The position numbers and the translations under genes were made by a program. Shown piece after piece: positions 10,875 to 29,887 of a stretch of 64,000 nucleotides of DNA; position 1 is the stretch's first letter; every line of letters starts with the position of its first letter. The stretch comes from Mycobacterium seoulense. GTDB taxonomy: Bacteria; Actinomycetota; Actinomycetes; Mycobacteriales; Mycobacteriaceae. Below the pieces are notes generated by a model, which saw nothing but the letters and a program-made list of their open reading frames with translations, was not told the origin of the DNA and did no database searches. The stretch lies in assembly GCF_010731595.1 (NCBI RefSeq), contig NZ_AP022582.1:3534001-3598000 (forward strand), in the 5' to 3' direction.

Positions 10875-10957
10875 CCGCCGGCCCGCTCGTTCGACCTCCA
10901 AGCGGCCGCCTCAGGTGTCATCATGTGCGTGCAATCACGATCTAAGGAGGTCGGTGG

Positions 10958-13330
10958 ATGCGTCGTAGTGTGACGACGTCCCCTCCTGCCCGCCGCATCG
11001 CGTCCGTCGTCGGCCTACTTCTTCTTGGCTATCTGTGCCTTCTGGCGCTGCGGCCTTCGACCAGGGACGCCTTGCCGGCGTGGTTGAGGTGGTTCGGTCA
11101 ACCCGGGTCGGGACCCACGCTGTTGGTGACGTTGGCGATCCTGGCTTTTTTCGTGATGGCGTTTCGATCGGCCGGCGCCGGCCGCACGACAGGTATCTCA
11201 TTCACCGTTATCGCGGCCTTGATCAGTTTGACCGCCGTACTCGGCCTCAGCTCCTTTTGGTCTTGTCACGACGCCAACCATCCGGCGTTGTTCACCCCGC
11301 TGATGGCGACCGCCTCGTTGGTCAAAGGCAGCACCGGCGACTACTCGCTGGGCGGACGCCCTTGCCCCACGCCCACCCCGATCGCCCTGGAAGTAGCCCG
11401 GGTGACCGCCCTGGCCGCGATCTTCACCGGATTGGGTGGGGTTGTCATAGCAGCCTTCCGGTCCCAAGTGGACCGGTTACGAGCGAACCTCGCAGACTCC
11501 GTCACCGCCGTCGTCGGCATCGATGACGACACCCAGTCAATGATCAGCGGGATCGCGCAGACGTTGGACCGGCGCAACACCTTGGTGGTCATCACCAACG
11601 CGGGCGACGACCACGTAACACGGGCCCGCAGGCAGGGCGCCCGAGTGGTCCTGGTGGATTTCAGCACGCCATCCACGCTGGTCTCGTTGCGCCTGTGGCG
11701 CCACCTCGCGCGGCTCTACCTGATGGCACCCGACCCGGCGATCAATCTACTGTGGCTTGACCTGATCGGTCGTCGGCTCGCCGAGGTCGGCCACAAGCAG
11801 CGGTTGCCGCTCATCGTGCGCATGGATGACCCCTGGCTCGCCGAAGCGTGGCGCACTCAGCAATTTGGGGGATCGGACACCCGGTGGGCGGCCGATGTCG
11901 TCGGTAAGTATGAGGTGACCGCCGGCAGGTTGTTGGACGGCATCATTGAAGCCAAGACCATTCGGCGGGTATTCGTCTGTGGCACTTCACAATTGACTCT
12001 GGCGCTGTGCGCGGACCTGACCCGCCGCGCTCTTGAGCGTGACTTCTATACCCCGCCGGATGCGGTGTCGTTGCCGGCGCTCACCCTCGTCGAACGCGAC
12101 GCCGATGACTACTTGCGGGATCACGAATTTCATCGCCAGCAGGCCGGTTTCATGTCGGATGGACCGGAAATCGATGCAGTAACGGAGATGCCAACAGTAC
12201 CCACCATGCTGCGTTTGATCGGCGATGCCAACCCCGCCACGAGCGCCGTGATTTTGGTCGACACGCAGCAGGCTGCGACTGCCAGCAGGCTGGCTGCCCG
12301 CTTCCCCGAGATGCCGGTGTACACCTCGGATCTCAACACCAACCTGGCCGACGACGCGATCCAGGTCGTGGGAAGGTTGCAGTCCTATTCCCTGGTGCTG
12401 GACAGTCGCGAGGGCCGAGTCCAGGACGCCTGGGAGCGCGCGGCGAGGCTGATTCACGAGCGCTATGTGTCAACGATCGACCCGGGGACACCCCGGTCCC
12501 CGGCCGCGATGCCGTGGGAGGACCTTAATGAGTTCTACCGCGGATCCAATCGGCGCCAGGTACGCAACGCCTTATGGATGGTTGAAAAAATCGCTGGGCA
12601 CACCTGGAATACGTGGGGCAGCCCACCGGCGCAGCTTTCCGGCAACGACATGGCGGGATTGCCGCCGTTGGAGCAGCTTTCTCTGATGGGCTTCGACCAC
12701 GACTCAGCGATGAGCATGGCGCGGGCTGAGCACGAGGACTGGTGCCGCTATTACCGCCACAACGGCTGGAAGTACGGATCGCCTCGCGATGATTCGCACA
12801 AGATCCACGACAAGCTGGTCGACTGGGCGGTAGTGGAAAGCACCCCAGATTTGCTCAATGCAGCGATCCGCAGCTTGGCCGCTACCTTGTGGAGTCTGCG
12901 TCAACTGGGCTTCCGGTCGCGCCCGATGTGGCAGACCTTCACCCGGGTCGGGACGGTCACCGCTGAGCAACGCGACGCCCCGTGGACGTGGACATCGGAT
13001 TCCGGGCACACGATGCGCGCCAACGCCGGTGACTGGGCGGTCCACGAAGACGGAAAGATCTGGTCCGTGCGCGACGACATTTTCCGCGACACGTACGAGC
13101 CGGCGGGTGATGGGAAATGGCAACGCAGTGGCTGCGTTCAGGCGCGGCCCGCGCAGGCCGGTGAAACCATTGACACCCTCGAAGGCCCCGCGACTGCGGC
13201 CGACGGCGACTGGGTCGTACGCGGGGAGGCCGGCGAGCAATGGCCCGTCCCCGCCGACGAATTCGCGCGCCGCTATGCCGAATTCCGCCCGCCCCAAGAA
13301 AGCCGCGTTTTGGATCGCGGAAAGCAATAA
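10958..13330 (+). CDS. Membrane protein with Rossmann (TrkA-N/RCK-like) and RyR domains
   Basis: A 790-residue protein with no counterpart at this locus in M. tuberculosis. Order: four hydrophobic helices (about 11-30, 51-70, 78-98, 145-165); two Rossmann-like segments, the first from about 183 (VTAVVGIDDD) and the second from about 335 (RRVFVCGTSQLTLALCADL), as in RCK/TrkA-N nucleotide-binding domains; a RyR domain at about 587-640 (ARAEHEDWCRYYRHNGWKYG, then KIHDKLVDWA); and a C-terminal pair of related repeats near 690 and 749 (GDWAVHEDGKIWSV; GDWVVRGEAGEQWPVP). A near-ideal AAGGAGGT lies six bases before the ATG. Bacterial RyR domains have been predicted to bind nucleotide-derived ligands in conflict systems. 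The TIR gene follows 145 bases downstream on the same strand. Function is inferred, not known. Confidence 0.85.
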   Translation: MRRSVTTSPPARRIASVVGLLLLGYLCLLALRPSTRDALPAWLRWFGQPGSGPTLLVTLAILAFFVMAFRSAGAGRTTGISFTVIAALISLTAVLGLSSFWSCHDANHPALFTPLMATASLVKGSTGDYSLGGRPCPTPTPIALEVARVTALAAIFTGLGGVVIAAFRSQVDRLRANLADSVTAVVGIDDDTQSMISGIAQTLDRRNTLVVITNAGDDHVTRARRQGARVVLVDFSTPSTLVSLRLWRHLARLYLMAPDPAINLLWLDLIGRRLAEVGHKQRLPLIVRMDDPWLAEAWRTQQFGGSDTRWAADVVGKYEVTAGRLLDGIIEAKTIRRVFVCGTSQLTLALCADLTRRALERDFYTPPDAVSLPALTLVERDADDYLRDHEFHRQQAGFMSDGPEIDAVTEMPTVPTMLRLIGDANPATSAVILVDTQQAATASRLAARFPEMPVYTSDLNTNLADDAIQVVGRLQSYSLVLDSREGRVQDAWERAARLIHERYVSTIDPGTPRSPAAMPWEDLNEFYRGSNRRQVRNALWMVEKIAGHTWNTWGSPPAQLSGNDMAGLPPLEQLSLMGFDHDSAMSMARAEHEDWCRYYRHNGWKYGSPRDDSHKIHDKLVDWAVVESTPDLLNAAIRSLAATLWSLRQLGFRSRPMWQTFTRVGTVTAEQRDAPWTWTSDSGHTMRANAGDWAVHEDGKIWSVRDDIFRDTYEPAGDGKWQRSGCVQARPAQAGETIDTLEGPATAADGDWVVRGEAGEQWPVPADEFARRYAEFRPPQESRVLDRGKQ

Positions 13331-13392
13331 GCGTCTGACGCGTTATCGACTCGAACGGAGCCGAATTGGCCATCCTGAGTTGGGCTCGCACT

Positions 13393-13420
13393 GATACGGT
13401 ATCGGCGCATGTGATACCGG
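13393..13420. promoter_or_regulatory. Repeated GATAC elements in the TIR gene promoter region
   Basis: GATAC-G-GTATC (13393-13403) is an inverted repeat with one central base. A second TGATACCGG follows at 13412-13420, so TGATACSG occurs twice 20 bases apart. The pair lies about 55-85 bases before the TIR start, where an operator or activator site would sit. Confidence 0.4.
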
Positions 13421-13475
13421 TCGCATGCAGGCTATGGCCCATTTCGTTCGCTCGGCCTCACCCTAGGAGACTGTG

Positions 13476-15032
13476 ATGGCGCTGTTTGTCAGCTACTCGA
13501 GCCAGGACAGGTCAACGGTCGATGCCCTGGCGGCGGCGCTGCGGCGCGCCCAACAGCAAGTTTGGTTCGACCAAGAGCTAGGCGGCGGCGACTCGTGGTG
13601 GGCCAAGATCCTCGAGCAGATCCGTGCCTGCGACCTGTTCCTCGTCGCGCTCTCAAGCAACTGGTTGCAGTCCAAACCGAGTCAGTCCGAGCTGCGCTAC
13701 GCGCAGGCTTTGAACAAGCCGATCCTTCCGGTTCGCATCGGCGACATAGGCAGCATGCGCGTGAATCCACTTGCGGCGTTGCAGATCATCGACTACCGGA
13801 ACCCGACCGTTGACGCCGGCATCCAGCTGGTCACCGCCGTGCACTCGCTCACCGCTAAGCCTCACCCCTTGCCGGACCCGCTGCCCGACGAGCCGCCCGT
13901 GCCGTTCGGCTACATAACGCGGTTGGGCAACATGCTCGCCGAGAAGGAGCTCAGCCCGCAGCAGCAGCTGCAATTGTTGGTCGAACTCAGATCCGGACTC
14001 GACGAGGACGGCGACGACCCCAGCGCCCGCAGCGACATCGCCCAACTTTTGCGCATGATGCGCCTGCGACACGACGTCACGTATCGCACCCGAAACGACA
14101 TCGACAACGTGCTGGCGTCGATCGAGTCCGATCAGCAAGCTTCCGCTTCCGGCGCGTCGACAACACCCGCCGCCAGGTCGCAGACCGCACCGACCACCCC
14201 GGCGCGACCGGCAAGCGACGCCAGCGCACCGAGCACGGCCGGTGGCGGTCCGGCCGCAACCGGCGGATCCAAGAACCGGCTGATCATCATCGGCGGCGCC
14301 GCCCTGGCCGTCATCATCGCGATCGTGGGGACGGTCGTTTTCCTAAGCCAGGGGTCGAGTTCCAAAAAAACGCCGGCCGAGACCCGCGGTGCGGCGCCGG
14401 GCGGCCCCGCCGGGACAGCCGCGCAGATGGCGCCCGCTGAGGGCGCACCCGGGCAGTCGGCACCCGCACCGGGGGGGAGCGGGCGTCTGGACGCAATTCT
14501 GCTCAGCGCGAAGCAGGTGAACAGCATCATGAACCCGCCCACATTGATACAAGTCGCCGACGACCAGACGGCCACGCGGCTGCGTCCAGACGAGAGTCTG
14601 TCCAACCCGGCCTGCTTCGGTGCGTTTGATCCGATTCGCGAGTCCGCCTACGCGGGCTACAACCCCAAGGCCGTGCTCGGACAAGGGCTGGATACGCAGG
14701 ACAGCAGCTACCGGGTTTACCAAGCCGCGGTCAGCTTCCCGACCCCCGCACAAGCCCAGGAGTTCGTGACCGCCTCTGCCGGCAAATGGAAGGCGTGCAA
14801 TGGGCTAACCGTCAAGTTCAACAACAAAGCCAACTGGACCTTCGGGAACGTGACCGAGGCTCCGTCGAGGATCACGCTGTCGCGCGCGCCGGGAGATCCG
14901 AGCCGGGCGAGCTGCGAGCGCGTGCTGAGTGCGGTGTCCGACGTGGTCCTCGACGTCATGGCTTGCGAAGTGGGTGTCCACGGCCAAGGCGGACAGATCA
15001 CCGATCAGATGGCCGCCAACGTCACGCAATAG
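13476..15032 (+). CDS. TIR-domain transmembrane protein with PknH-like extracellular sensor
   Basis: A 518-residue protein. An N-terminal TIR domain (about 1-135) opens with ALFVSYSSQD and has VWFDQELGGGDSW, DLFLVALSSNW and the alpha-C motif SQSELRYA, whose Glu (72) aligns with the catalytic Glu of NAD-cleaving TIRs. A helical linker (about 140-215) and an Ala/Thr/Pro-rich stretch lead to one membrane helix (about 267-290, LIIIGGAALAVIIAIVGTVV). After another Pro/Gly/Ala linker comes a domain of about 180 residues resembling the PknH_C sensor domain, with four Cys (NPACFG, KACNG, RASCER, MACEVG) fit for two disulfides. TIR is predicted inside and the sensor outside. ATG at 13476 has AGGAG six bases upstream. 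It is paired with the RyR gene. Confidence 0.88.
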   Translation: MALFVSYSSQDRSTVDALAAALRRAQQQVWFDQELGGGDSWWAKILEQIRACDLFLVALSSNWLQSKPSQSELRYAQALNKPILPVRIGDIGSMRVNPLAALQIIDYRNPTVDAGIQLVTAVHSLTAKPHPLPDPLPDEPPVPFGYITRLGNMLAEKELSPQQQLQLLVELRSGLDEDGDDPSARSDIAQLLRMMRLRHDVTYRTRNDIDNVLASIESDQQASASGASTTPAARSQTAPTTPARPASDASAPSTAGGGPAATGGSKNRLIIIGGAALAVIIAIVGTVVFLSQGSSSKKTPAETRGAAPGGPAGTAAQMAPAEGAPGQSAPAPGGSGRLDAILLSAKQVNSIMNPPTLIQVADDQTATRLRPDESLSNPACFGAFDPIRESAYAGYNPKAVLGQGLDTQDSSYRVYQAAVSFPTPAQAQEFVTASAGKWKACNGLTVKFNNKANWTFGNVTEAPSRITLSRAPGDPSRASCERVLSAVSDVVLDVMACEVGVHGQGGQITDQMAANVTQ

Positions 15033-15067: not shown

Positions 15068-15117
15068 CGGCCCCCGAGCAAGGCTCCTGGTTGGACAGAC
15101 CGGAAGCTCGGGGGCCG
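15068..15117. terminator. Strong hairpin after the TIR gene
   Basis: CGGCCCCCGAGC (15068-15079) and GCTCGGGGGCCG (15106-15117) are perfect 12-base complements around a 26-base loop, 36 bases past the TIR stop. There is no T-tract, as is common for mycobacterial terminators. It would end the RyR-TIR unit. Confidence 0.6.
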
Positions 15118-26656: not shown

Positions 26657-27916
26657 TCAGGGTTCGGGCGAAAAGAACGCCCGCATCGCCGCCGAGTAGG
26701 CGGACACGTCGTGAGCGCCCATCAACTCGCGCGCCGAGTGCATGGCCAGCTGCGCGGCACCCACGTCGACGGTGGGGATCCCGGTGCGGGCCGACGCCAG
26801 CGGTCCGATCGTCGACCCGCACGGCAGATCGGCGCGGTGCTCGTAGCGTTGCAAGGGGACCCCGGCCTGTTCGCAGGCCAGGGCGAAGCCCGCGGCCGTG
26901 CGTGAGTCGGTTGCGTAACGCAGGTTGGGGTGCACCTTGAGCACGGGTCCGGCGTTGACCTCGATGAGGTGGCCGGGCTCGTGCCGCTCCGGATAGTTGG
27001 GGTGGGTGGCGTGCGCCATGTCGGCCGACGCCAGCAACGAGTCCGGCAGCCGGCGCAGGAAATCTTCCCGGGTGCCGCCGGCCGCCAGGACGATCCGCTC
27101 GAGGACGGTGCCCAGCAGGTCGGACTGGGCGCCATGGTCCGATGACGAACCGACCTCCTCATGGTCGAAGAGCACCAGCACCGGCAGGGGCCCCCGCGGC
27201 TGGGTGTCCAACAAAGCCTCCATCCCCGCATAGCAACTGGCCTGGTTGTCCAGCCGGGGCGCGCTGAGGAGGTCGGCGCCGGCGCCGACCACCGTCGATG
27301 GGGTGAGGTCATGGGTCATCAGGTCGGCCGCCAGCACGGCGGTCGGCGCGACACCGGCGCGTTCGGCGACGAACTCGAGGAACGATTTCGTTTCGGCGCC
27401 GGCGCCCCAGACCGCGTTGACGTGGCGCTGCGGGTCGAGCGTCAGCGATTTGCGGTCCTCGGCCAGGTGGATGGCCAGCTGGGGCACCCGCAGGATCGGG
27501 TCGTCTATCCGGACGAGCCGATGCTCGACTGCGGCGCCGACACGCACCGACAACCGTCCACTGATGCCGAGGTCGCGGTCCAGCCAAGAGTTGAGCCACG
27601 CTCCGCCGTACGGCTCCAGCGCGACCACCCGCCAGCCGGCGACCAGCCGATCCGGATGCTGCTTGACCCGAAGGTTCGGGCTGTCGGTGTGCGCGCCGAC
27701 GATCCGGAACGGGCCCTCAGCCGCCTCGGAGTTCCAGGCAACCAGCGAGCCGGCCCGCACCGTGAAGTAGCGCCCCCGTTCGCCCGGCCAGCGCTCGCCC
27801 TCACTGAGTTCGGTGTATCCGGCGGCGGCCAGCCGCGCGGCCACCGTCGCGCAGACATGAAACGGCGACGGAGAAGCGTCGATGAAATCGCAGAGGCCTG
27901 CGGCGCTGGCCGACAT
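26657..27916 (-). CDS. pepC: M18-family aspartyl aminopeptidase PepC
   Basis: A 419-residue zinc aminopeptidase that removes N-terminal Asp/Glu-type residues. Metal motifs: [10 protein letters not shown] (His, Asp), DHEEVGS (bridging Glu), and C-terminal [13 protein letters not shown] with the final His in [12 protein letters not shown]. The start [20 protein letters not shown] matches Rv0800; the frame runs on through the upstream 57-bp repeats, which should not be counted as protein. Divergent from dyp. Confidence 0.95.
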
Positions 27917-27935
27917 GTTCAACATCATGGCTGTC

Positions 27936-28073
27936 GGCGCTCGACGTCGCCACGCTAGGTCCGATTGCGCGGCTCCTTCCTCGCGCACTTCCGGCGCTCG
28001 ACGTCGCCACGCTAGGTCCGATTGCGCGGCTCCTTCCTCGCGCACTTCCGGCGCTCGACGTCGCCACGCTAGG
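27936..28073. repeat. 57-bp tandem repeat, 2.4 copies (MIRU/VNTR-like)
   Basis: Two full identical units (27936-27992 and 27993-28049) and a 24-base third start (28050-28073). Each begins GGCGCTCGACGTCGCCACGC and contains the run TAGGTCC. The length is a multiple of three, so frames stay open and create false N-terminal extensions of pepC and dyp. It occupies nearly all of the pepC/dyp divergent region. Mycobacterial interspersed repetitive units have this size and position. Confidence 0.92.
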
Positions 28074-28075
28074 GT
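28070..28075 (+). promoter_or_regulatory. -10 element of the dyp-encapsulin operon
   Basis: TAGGGT lies seven bases before the GTG of dyp, implying a leaderless transcript. It arises where the last repeat copy diverges: full copies have TAGGTC at this point and lack the final T at the right place. Confidence 0.55.
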
Positions 28076-28082
28076 CAGCAGA

Positions 28083-29093
28083 GTGCCCCACGTCCAGCCG
28101 CAGCCGATCCTCGAGCCGTTGACGCCGGCGGCGGTCTTCCTGGTGGTGACCATCGACGACGGCGGGGAAGCCACGGTTCATGACGCACTGCCCGATATTT
28201 CCGGGCTGGTGCGCGCGATCGGTTTTCGCGAGCCGCCGAAACGGTTGTCGGCCATCACCTCTATCGGCTCGCAGGCATGGGATCGCTTGTTCACCGGCCC
28301 GCGTCCCGCCGAGTTGCACCCGTTCGTCGAACTGAAGGGCCCGCGGCACACCGCCCCGGCCACGCCCGGGGACCTGCTGTTTCACATCCGGGCCGAGAGC
28401 CTGGATGTGTGTTTCGAACTCGCCGACCGCATTCTGAGGTCGATGGCCGGTGCCGTCACCGTGGTCGACGAGGTGCACGGATTCCGCTACTTCGACAACC
28501 GCGACCTGTTGGGCTTCGTCGACGGCACCGAAAACCCCGACGGCCAGCTTGCCGTCAGCGCGACCGCCATCGGCGCCGAGGATCCCGAGTTCGAGGGCTC
28601 GTGCTACGTGCACGTGCAGAAGTATCTGCACGAAATGGATTCATGGAATTCGCTTTCGGTCAGTGAGCAGGAGCTGGTGATCGGCCGCACGAAGCTGGAA
28701 AACCTCGAACTCGGCGACGACGAAAAGCCGGCCAACTCCCACATCGCCCTCAACGTCATCACCGACAACGACGGCACCGAGCTGAAGATCGTTCGGCACA
28801 ACATGCCGTTCGGTGAACTCGGCAAGGGCGAGTACGGCACCTATTTCATCGGCTATTCCCGCACGCCGCAGGTCACCGAACAGATGCTGCGGAACATGTT
28901 CCTCGGGGATCCACCCGGCAATACCGACCACATCCTCGAATTCTCCACCGCGATCACCGGTGGCCTGTTCTTCTCCCCCACTGTCGACTTCCTCGACGAT
29001 CCACCGCCACTGCCCGCAGTGCCGGCGGCGGAAACGACTGCCGCACAGGACGGCTCACTTTCCATCGGCAGCCTGAAAGGAACCACTTTATGA
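28083..29093 (+). CDS. dyp: Dye-decolorizing (Dyp-type) haem peroxidase, encapsulin cargo
   Basis: A 336-residue Dyp peroxidase. The family signature GFVDGTENP (near 145-153) supplies the catalytic Asp; the proximal haem His is in IVRHNMPFG (near 240). The Pro/Ala-rich tail ends in [11 protein letters not shown], the C-terminal targeting peptide that docks Dyp inside encapsulin shells. The gene overlaps the encapsulin start by four bases. Same order as Rv0799c-Rv0798c. Start GTG chosen from the leaderless -10 and family N-terminus. Confidence 0.95.
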
Positions 29094-29887
29094 ACAACCT
29101 CTACCGCGACCTCGCCCCTGTCACCGAAGCCGCCTGGCGCGAAATCGAATTGGAGGCGACCCGAACCTTCAAACGCCATGTCGCCGGCCGCCGGGTGGTC
29201 GACGTCAGCGAGCCCGGCGGTCCGGTCACCGCAGCGGTCAGCACCGGGCGCCTGATCGACGTGGCATCACCCTCCGACGGGGTAGAGGCTCATCTACGGG
29301 CGAGTAAGCCCCTTGTGCGCCTGCGTGTTCCGTTCACCCTATCGCGCTACGAAGTCGACAACGTCGAGCGCGGTGCGCAGGACTCGGACTGGGACCCGGT
29401 CAAGGCGGCCGCCAAGAAGCTGGCGTTCGTCGAGGACCGCGCAATTTTCGAGGGCTACGCCGCCGCGTCGATCGACGGCATCCGCACGTGCAGCTCGAAC
29501 AAGCCGCTGACCTTGCCGGCAGACCCCCGCGAGATCCCGGATGTCATCACCCAGGCGATCTCCCAACTGCGGCTGGCCGGCGTCGACGGTCCCTACTCCG
29601 TCCTGCTATCCGCCGATGTCTACACCCGGGTGAGCGAGACCACCGAACACGGATATCCGATCCTCGAGCACATCGACCGGCTGGTTCCCGGGGACATCAT
29701 CTGGGCACCGGCCATTGACGGCGCATTCGTGCTCACCACGCGCGGCGGCGACTTCGACCTGCAGCTCGGAACCGACGTGTCGATCGGTTACACCAGCCAC
29801 GATGCGGACACCGTGCAGCTGTATCTGCAGGAGACACTGACATTCCTGTGCTACACCGCCGAGGCATCCGTCCCGCTGAGCTCGTAG
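29090..29887 (+). CDS. cfp29: Encapsulin shell protein (Cfp29)
   Basis: A 265-residue HK97-fold shell protein. Family hallmarks: [16 protein letters not shown] at the start, TFKRHVAGRRVVDV, the E-loop VRLRVPFTLSRYEVDNVERG and GPYSVLLSADVYT. Encapsulins self-assemble into nanocompartments; in M. tuberculosis Cfp29 is secreted as an antigen and packages Dyp. Start overlaps dyp (ATGA), coupling shell and cargo synthesis. Confidence 0.97.
   Translation: MNNLYRDLAPVTEAAWREIELEATRTFKRHVAGRRVVDVSEPGGPVTAAVSTGRLIDVASPSDGVEAHLRASKPLVRLRVPFTLSRYEVDNVERGAQDSDWDPVKAAAKKLAFVEDRAIFEGYAAASIDGIRTCSSNKPLTLPADPREIPDVITQAISQLRLAGVDGPYSVLLSADVYTRVSETTEHGYPILEHIDRLVPGDIIWAPAIDGAFVLTTRGGDFDLQLGTDVSIGYTSHDADTVQLYLQETLTFLCYTAEASVPLSS

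Follow-up and report, generated by a model that had tools for sequence, protein, structure and literature searches.

The nearest known kind of system to the locus described here is Thoeris, a pair of genes in which a TIR protein, ThsB, makes a signal derived from nicotinamide adenine dinucleotide (NAD) and an effector, ThsA, reads it. Some ThsA effectors carry membrane and macro domains, according to PMC11204291. The locus lies in a window of 64,000 nucleotides (nt; the whole stretch of DNA that was analysed) from the genome of Mycobacterium seoulense, a single contig of 5.53 Mb. It comprises two plus-strand open reading frames, genes A and B, which are present where they had been predicted and are separated by 145 nt (Table 1). 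Together they form a conserved unit of two genes, one (B) for a TIR protein that spans the membrane and has a PknH-type domain, the other (A) for a RyR/RCK channel-like protein. As in Thoeris, one protein would make an NAD-derived signal and the other would read it, and B contains the conserved glutamate of a Thoeris-like TIR domain. The pair differs from Thoeris in both proteins, however. A does not resemble a ThsA-type effector, be it of SIR2-SLOG or transmembrane-macro type, but has RyR and RCK domains; a Pfam search up to E 1 revealed no SIR2, SLOG or macro domain in A, its matches being RyR, PGDYG, a weak TrkA_N and one at chance level. B, in turn, spans the membrane and has an outer sensor domain. 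No description of the pair was found in open-licence literature, a collection that is without most subscription papers and of which no paper on Thoeris types III to VI was consulted. A term search of PMC9503650, PMC8195603 and PMC7159879 found no 'ryr', and its two hits to 'ryanodine' are both cited titles at the end of PMC8195603.

On balance we lean, by a little, towards a circuit in which B is a TIR receptor sensing the outside and an NAD-derived signal gates the RyR channel A. The PknH-type domain of B would sense a cue outside the membrane, upon which the cytosolic TIR domains would cluster and convert NAD+ to a signal of the adenosine diphosphate (ADP)-ribose type. Binding of this signal by the tandem RyR domain of A would cause the RCK gating ring to open a membrane pore, and the ion flux would arrest or kill the cell; an abortive response to attack by phage or on the envelope is the most likely role. 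The domains, the hydropathy segments, the linkage of the genes, the retained residues and the modelled folds are observed, and from these we infer NAD cleavage, the signal, its binding, conduction and the trigger.

A had been described in an earlier note on this DNA as a four-helix membrane protein with Rossmann-like and RyR domains. This description is borne out by four hydropathy segments, a match to PF02026 (E 8.5e-8) and an RCK/Rossmann fold in the predicted structure; Pfam further detects PGDYG at the C end. The RyR Repeat12 region is recognized both by the profile and, in the model, as a tandem Repeat12 fold. TrkA_N is matched at E 0.024, below its cut-off; nonetheless, the predicted structure displays a tandem RCK/Rossmann fold. 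This tandem gating-ring fold is common to A, GsuK, TrkA/KtrA and CASTOR/DMI1, and the RCK rings of the solved relatives come from K+ channels and transporters. GsuK, a close full-length fold match of the predicted structure, has been solved with NAD and with ADP. A two-helix pore with a pore helix is clear in the model of a short relative and is predicted with low confidence in A of the window. In comparison with RCK-gated channels and transporters, A adds the RyR Repeat12 tandem and is without a TVGYG-type K+ filter; among the 31 rows in alignment A4 one (L196) has this filter and the other 30 do not. None of the PADLOC families matches gene A. The PGDYG stretch also matches proteins of phages or prophages of Staphylococcus, Streptococcus, E. 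coli and M. abscessus, and PHROGs families of unknown function; two such phage genes that were inspected encode only ∼65 and 86 residues. At E 0.01 there are 26 phage records matching A, and the 20 of these 26 that are listed cover 5-6% of A, in this stretch. In two genomes (G043:C171:143605-143970 and G081:C23:550057-550437) a separate piece resembling the C end of A lies beyond a long TIR gene, and A itself is without that end, as would result if the domain had become detached from the gene.

Burroughs and colleagues are said to have predicted in 2015 that RyR domains are nucleotide sensors. A preprint of 2026 (PMC13232231) reports that phage RyR proteins bind cyclic ADP-ribose (cADPR) made by TIR proteins; cADPR is also implicated there in the function of animal ryanodine receptors. 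RyDEP (DyoEdafos gp78), a mycobacteriophage glycosidase of 138 residues, cleaves TIR-made 2'cADPR and 3'cADPR with its RyR Repeat12 domain, in which H75, W78, H100 and D117 lie at the ligand and H75/D117 form the catalytic dyad. Of eight phage relatives, six were found to bind the two signals, none of those tested cleaves them, and phage RyR proteins can serve as signal sponges (PMC13232231). In a gap-free alignment the four residues correspond to H592, W595, H617 and N634 of A, a large membrane protein. Three of the four ligand residues are thus found at equal spacing, and the dyad is incomplete, with H592 present and an Asn replacing the catalytic Asp. RyDEP as a whole matches the RyR part of A only at E 2; in repeat 1 of RyR2, W, H and N are spaced as in this alignment. 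All 44 proteins of alignment A3 have H592, and 43 of the 44 have W595; H617 is present in each of the 31 long relatives but in just 2 of the 13 short ones. An Asp occupies column 634 in 6 of the 31 long relatives and the neighbouring column 633 in 8 of the 13 short ones. Judged by these retained positions, long A proteins keep the binding-type residues and usually not the catalytic one. A RyDEP-like signal eraser is therefore unlikely, and the Asn makes A fit a reader better.

Gene B had been recorded as encoding a TIR protein. The match to TIR_2 (PF13676, E 2.7e-22) and alignments to Cat1 and 3h16 in the Protein Data Bank (PDB) agree with this, but the membrane helix and the PknH_C ectodomain had been overlooked. 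The C-terminal half of B matches PknH_C (PF14032, E 1.7e-37) and the solved sensor domain of PknH (PDB entry 4esq, E 5.9e-24). Because this match follows one clear membrane helix, and the four cysteines of the ectodomain are kept in all seven B proteins looked at, B reads as a receptor with the TIR domain inside and the sensor outside, an orientation suggested by its PknH-like layout. Like the receptor kinase PknH, B is a membrane protein with a C-terminal PknH_C ectodomain; unlike PknH, it has a TIR domain in place of the Ser/Thr kinase, no kinase domain being found by Pfam, and its ectodomain is more diverged. Ten B-like proteins were tested: PknH_C is present in eight, and its place is taken by an NHL propeller in one and by a thioredoxin-like domain in another (L117), which is without the TIR glutamate. 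In layout B is comparable to animal Toll-like receptors, which also combine an outer sensor, a membrane helix and an inner TIR domain, but the order along the chain is opposite, the ectodomain is unrelated and there is no evidence of common descent. To our knowledge, an outward-facing TIR receptor would be unusual among bacterial TIR defence systems.

Glu72 of B aligns with the conserved glutamate of TIR domains, a catalytic residue, and this glutamate is kept in 102 of the 105 distinct TIR domains (124 rows) found around the places studied here. The earlier proposal of a nucleotide signal that one of the two proteins makes and its partner senses at the membrane is in agreement with this glutamate, with the RyR ligand residues and with PMC13232231, but it missed that B is itself a membrane protein. 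The same glutamate would suit a decidedly less likely arrangement, in which the receptor triggers the TIR domain as a killer NADase. A would then be a guard that buffers or reports the loss of NAD, its RyR and RCK domains binding ADP-ribose, NAD or cADPR. The ligands of GsuK and the sponge role of phage RyR proteins (PMC13232231) are consistent with such a guard, yet a sponge would need neither membrane helices nor a gating ring, and both are kept in the family. Very unlikely, in our judgement, is a TIR domain that, like those of animal Toll receptors, is a scaffold for protein binding, touches A directly and dispenses with a small molecule. Adjacent genes and a constant cytosolic half of B would be expected of such a contact, but the retained glutamate and the nucleotide-site residues of A would then need another reason, and TIR proteins of differing make-up stand beside A.

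The two halves of B have diverged to different extents. Between B of the window and 28 relatives (29 of 30 B loci; L038, with fewer than 400 residues, was left out) the median identity is 87% for the TIR domain, 89% for the helical part that follows, 56% for the membrane helix, 38% and 27% for the linkers and 38% for the ectodomain; over all 406 pairs it is 89% for residues 1-205 versus 50% for the ectodomain. PknH of three of the same genomes, used as a control, shows 87-92% in the kinase domain and 65-76% in the ectodomain, compared with 92-93% (cytosolic part) and 55-70% (ectodomain) for B among these genomes, and 87% and 36-41% relative to B of the window. Five pairs of other PknH_C proteins show 63-90%, and for a second kinase-type protein, compared between the window genome and one relative, the two values are 87% and 69%. 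The contrast is partly general to such ectodomains, but it is larger in B. Three genomes (G110, G244 and G143; loci L085, L086 and L087) carry a complete pair and an extra B elsewhere, 88-90% identical in the cytosolic part; the extra B of G110 and G244 has an ectodomain 49-50% identical to that of the window, and that of G143 is a short frame of 317 residues.

The favoured circuit might be extended, tentatively, to a bacterial counterpart of the route from Toll receptor to ryanodine channel, in which TIR receptors with exchangeable, fast-changing ectodomains, some of them sharing one channel, would signal through cADPR isomers. Some genomes have the pair plus extra B genes. If this were true, the RyDEP proteins of mycobacteriophages would be counter-weapons, which destroy the signal by means of a sensor domain of the type that the channel itself has.

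The linkage of the two genes was examined in 248 genomes, taken as Mycobacterium in the broad sense, of which 97 contain A, 81 the cytosolic part of B, and 73 both. For the counts, 101 gene-A places, 91 gene-B places and 58 of 110 TIR_2 places were used, leaving out second pieces of the same gene and, for A, most pieces of one pseudogene. Distances between A and TIR genes rely on gene ends estimated from domain starts and frame lengths; the TIR_2 search covered 36 of the 97 A-bearing genomes, and in the other 61 the TIR genes are those found with the cytosolic part of B. Where B is at least 75% identical (56 places), 53 are tandem, A then B, and three are without A nearby. At 50-75% identity (24 places), B is divergent with A at nine, in tandem at five and without A at ten, and below 50% (11 places) A lies within 8 kb at one place and not at the other ten. 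A short RyR channel stands beside B at three of the 23 places without A (L102, L103 and L104), and the partial A match at L108 is a short channel too.

A is not confined to the company of B. In 19 of the 24 A-bearing genomes without B, a TIR_2 gene lies within 10 kb of a long A. Four of these neighbours were scanned for domains, the others being judged by frame length only, and they are TIR-nSTAND1-WD40 proteins with a transmembrane segment of ∼1400 residues (L063, L066) and TIR-transmembrane-WD40 proteins of ∼950 residues (L069, L074). Any TIR_2 gene is found within ∼1 kb at 72 of the 92 places where A has at least 550 residues, within 10 kb at 13 more, and at none of the distances considered at seven, the order being tandem, divergent or convergent. 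Since TIR_2 genes number only about three per genome (110 matches in 36 genomes, picked for carrying A), adjacency by chance is estimated at about 1% or less, and the linkage counts together with the shared presence and absence at the insertion site rule it out. The co-occurrence that had been suggested as a check thus holds for most long A genes of the sample, in several arrangements. A tree was built from 33 A-type proteins, with good support for 18 of its 30 inner branches. In it, A proteins partnered by B fall into two separate clades, one of which contains a divergent and a tandem group; nSTAND, WD40 and DUF4062 partners occur elsewhere or beside the second clade. In two genomes of 3.3 Mb (G075 and G115) A and B remain only as fragments, many with inner stops, which indicates that the pair has decayed in these small, reduced genomes.

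The genes flanking the pair match PF08768 and Aminotran_4, which presumably correspond to the labels Rv0813c and Rv0812 given earlier. From among the matches listed for these two genes, 86 and 83 places entered a census of the site. In the 81 listed genomes with both flanks on one contig, A and B are both present in 50, A only in one, B only in one and neither in 29; at 23 of the 29 empty sites the flanks are at most 425 nt apart. The pair has therefore been inserted into an otherwise conserved interval, as had been supposed, and behaves as one unit; its site is fixed, which sets it apart from defence islands that drift.

Several of the observations weigh against the circuit that we favour, in particular against its role in phage defence. 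No credible defence gene was identified by PADLOC among the ten flanking proteins, the sole match, of a purF-like protein to ShosT, being weak and partial (E 3.8e-5), so that the expected defence-island context did not materialize. Outside Mycobacterium, a TIR gene (detected with its own hidden Markov model) lies within 1 kb at 11 and within 4.5 kb at 14 of 37 channel places, several of which are contig-end pieces, compared with nine and ten of ten mycobacterial places in the same scan; these 47 of 75 channel places match most of the query, and the other 28 match less, mostly the RyR end. Other neighbours there include a DUF4062-nucleoside triphosphatase (NTPase) gene (L178) and RelA/SpoT (L188), which argue against a strict TIR link; at L175 a TIR_2 match is below the cut-off. 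From such neighbours it follows that the nucleotide signals read by the RyR channel may be of more than one kind; its link to TIR genes is tightest in mycobacteria.

The fixed chromosomal site and the lack of a credible PADLOC neighbour would suit a function other than defence, namely sensing of the envelope or environment for ion or osmotic balance, in which a cell-wall or ionic cue perceived by B tunes transport by A through an NAD-derived signal. PknH-type domains also occur on kinase-like and stand-alone proteins of the same genomes, and the K+ channels and transporters among the solved RCK relatives point in the same direction. We nevertheless regard this function as rather unlikely. Presence is patchy, with neither gene at 29 of the 81 listed sites, and the ectodomain of B diverges more than the PknH controls. 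Moreover, other partners of the channel have TIR-nSTAND1-WD40 and DUF4062-NTPase architectures, which are known from conflict systems.

RyR is not a common actinobacterial domain, as it was found in 20 of the 396 genomes of a phylum sample; three RyR genes of other Actinobacteria (L148, L150, L151) appear to sit among different kinds of genes. A plasmid or phage island was likewise rejected as a setting for the pair: A matches one plasmid record, and the two plasmid matches of B concern the ectodomain only. The plasmid copy of A (L161; Rhodococcus qingshengii, NZ_CP054208.1) is 38.7% identical. It is divergent with respect to a DUF4062-NTPase gene; WD40 and TIR genes follow downstream, and upstream there is a further TIR gene. 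At L120:4992-9023 (G114) a protein of 1343 residues combines TIR, guanylate-cyclase and AAA domains with weak TPR matches, and thus two possible signal-making domains in one chain.

The positions of the features are collected in Table 1. A Shine-Dalgarno-like sequence precedes each gene; the one upstream of B, AGGAG at 13465-13469, makes the ATG at 13476 the more likely start, rather than the GTG at 13473. A terminator hairpin had been noted behind the pair. A perfect 12-bp hairpin is indeed present 3' of B (folding z -2.55), but it has no T run, and the two terminator-like sites detected by a scan of the region (2.7 expected) do not include it. The gap between A and B contains a 7-bp inverted repeat, and its 51-nt core folds with z -1.49; the whole gap folds no better than shuffled sequences (z 0.28). 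Elsewhere in the window, at 27882-29887, are two adjacent plus-strand genes whose sequence features point to a putative Dyp peroxidase and a putative encapsulin shell protein.

Table 1. Features of the two-gene locus, in window coordinates.
Feature	Position	Strand	Basis
Shine-Dalgarno-like AAGGAGG upstream of gene A	10944..10950	+	sequence
Gene A, channel-like membrane protein with RyR domain and RCK gating ring, 790 residues	10958..13330	+	open reading frame, Pfam, predicted structure
Membrane region of A with its four hydrophobic segments (residues 13-31, 51-69, 79-97, 149-167)	10994..11458	+	hydropathy
Tandem RCK/TrkA_N-like gating-ring fold of A (residues 181-477)	11498..12388	+	predicted structure
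Tandem RyR Repeat12-like domain of A (residues ∼484-658)	12407..12931	+	PF02026 profile, predicted fold
Ligand-type residues of A: H592, W595, H617	12731-12733, 12740-12742, 12806-12808	+	alignment to RyDEP
PGDYG domain, C end of A (residues 743-779)	13184..13294	+	PF14083, E 4.3e-6; phage proteins also match here
Gene B, TIR, helical region, membrane helix and PknH_C, 518 residues (alternative start GTG 13473)	13476..15032	+	open reading frame, Pfam, PDB match, hydropathy
TIR domain of B, putatively cytosolic; Glu72 (13689-13691) aligns with conserved TIR glutamate	13485..13811	+	PF13676, PDB alignments
Single membrane helix of B (residues 270-288)	14283..14339	+	hydropathy 2.78
PknH-like, putatively extracellular sensor domain of B, four conserved Cys	14481..15017	+	PF14032, PDB 4esq
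Perfect 12-bp hairpin 3' of gene B, no T run	15068..15117	+	inverted-repeat search, folding

The pair suggests a bacterial circuit from surface sensor to channel, present in many mycobacteria. A bacterial Repeat12 channel-like protein encoded beside a TIR gene makes the link between cADPR and RyR directly testable in a simple system and, if the circuit is true, mycobacteria would gain a native target for the RyDEP of their phages.

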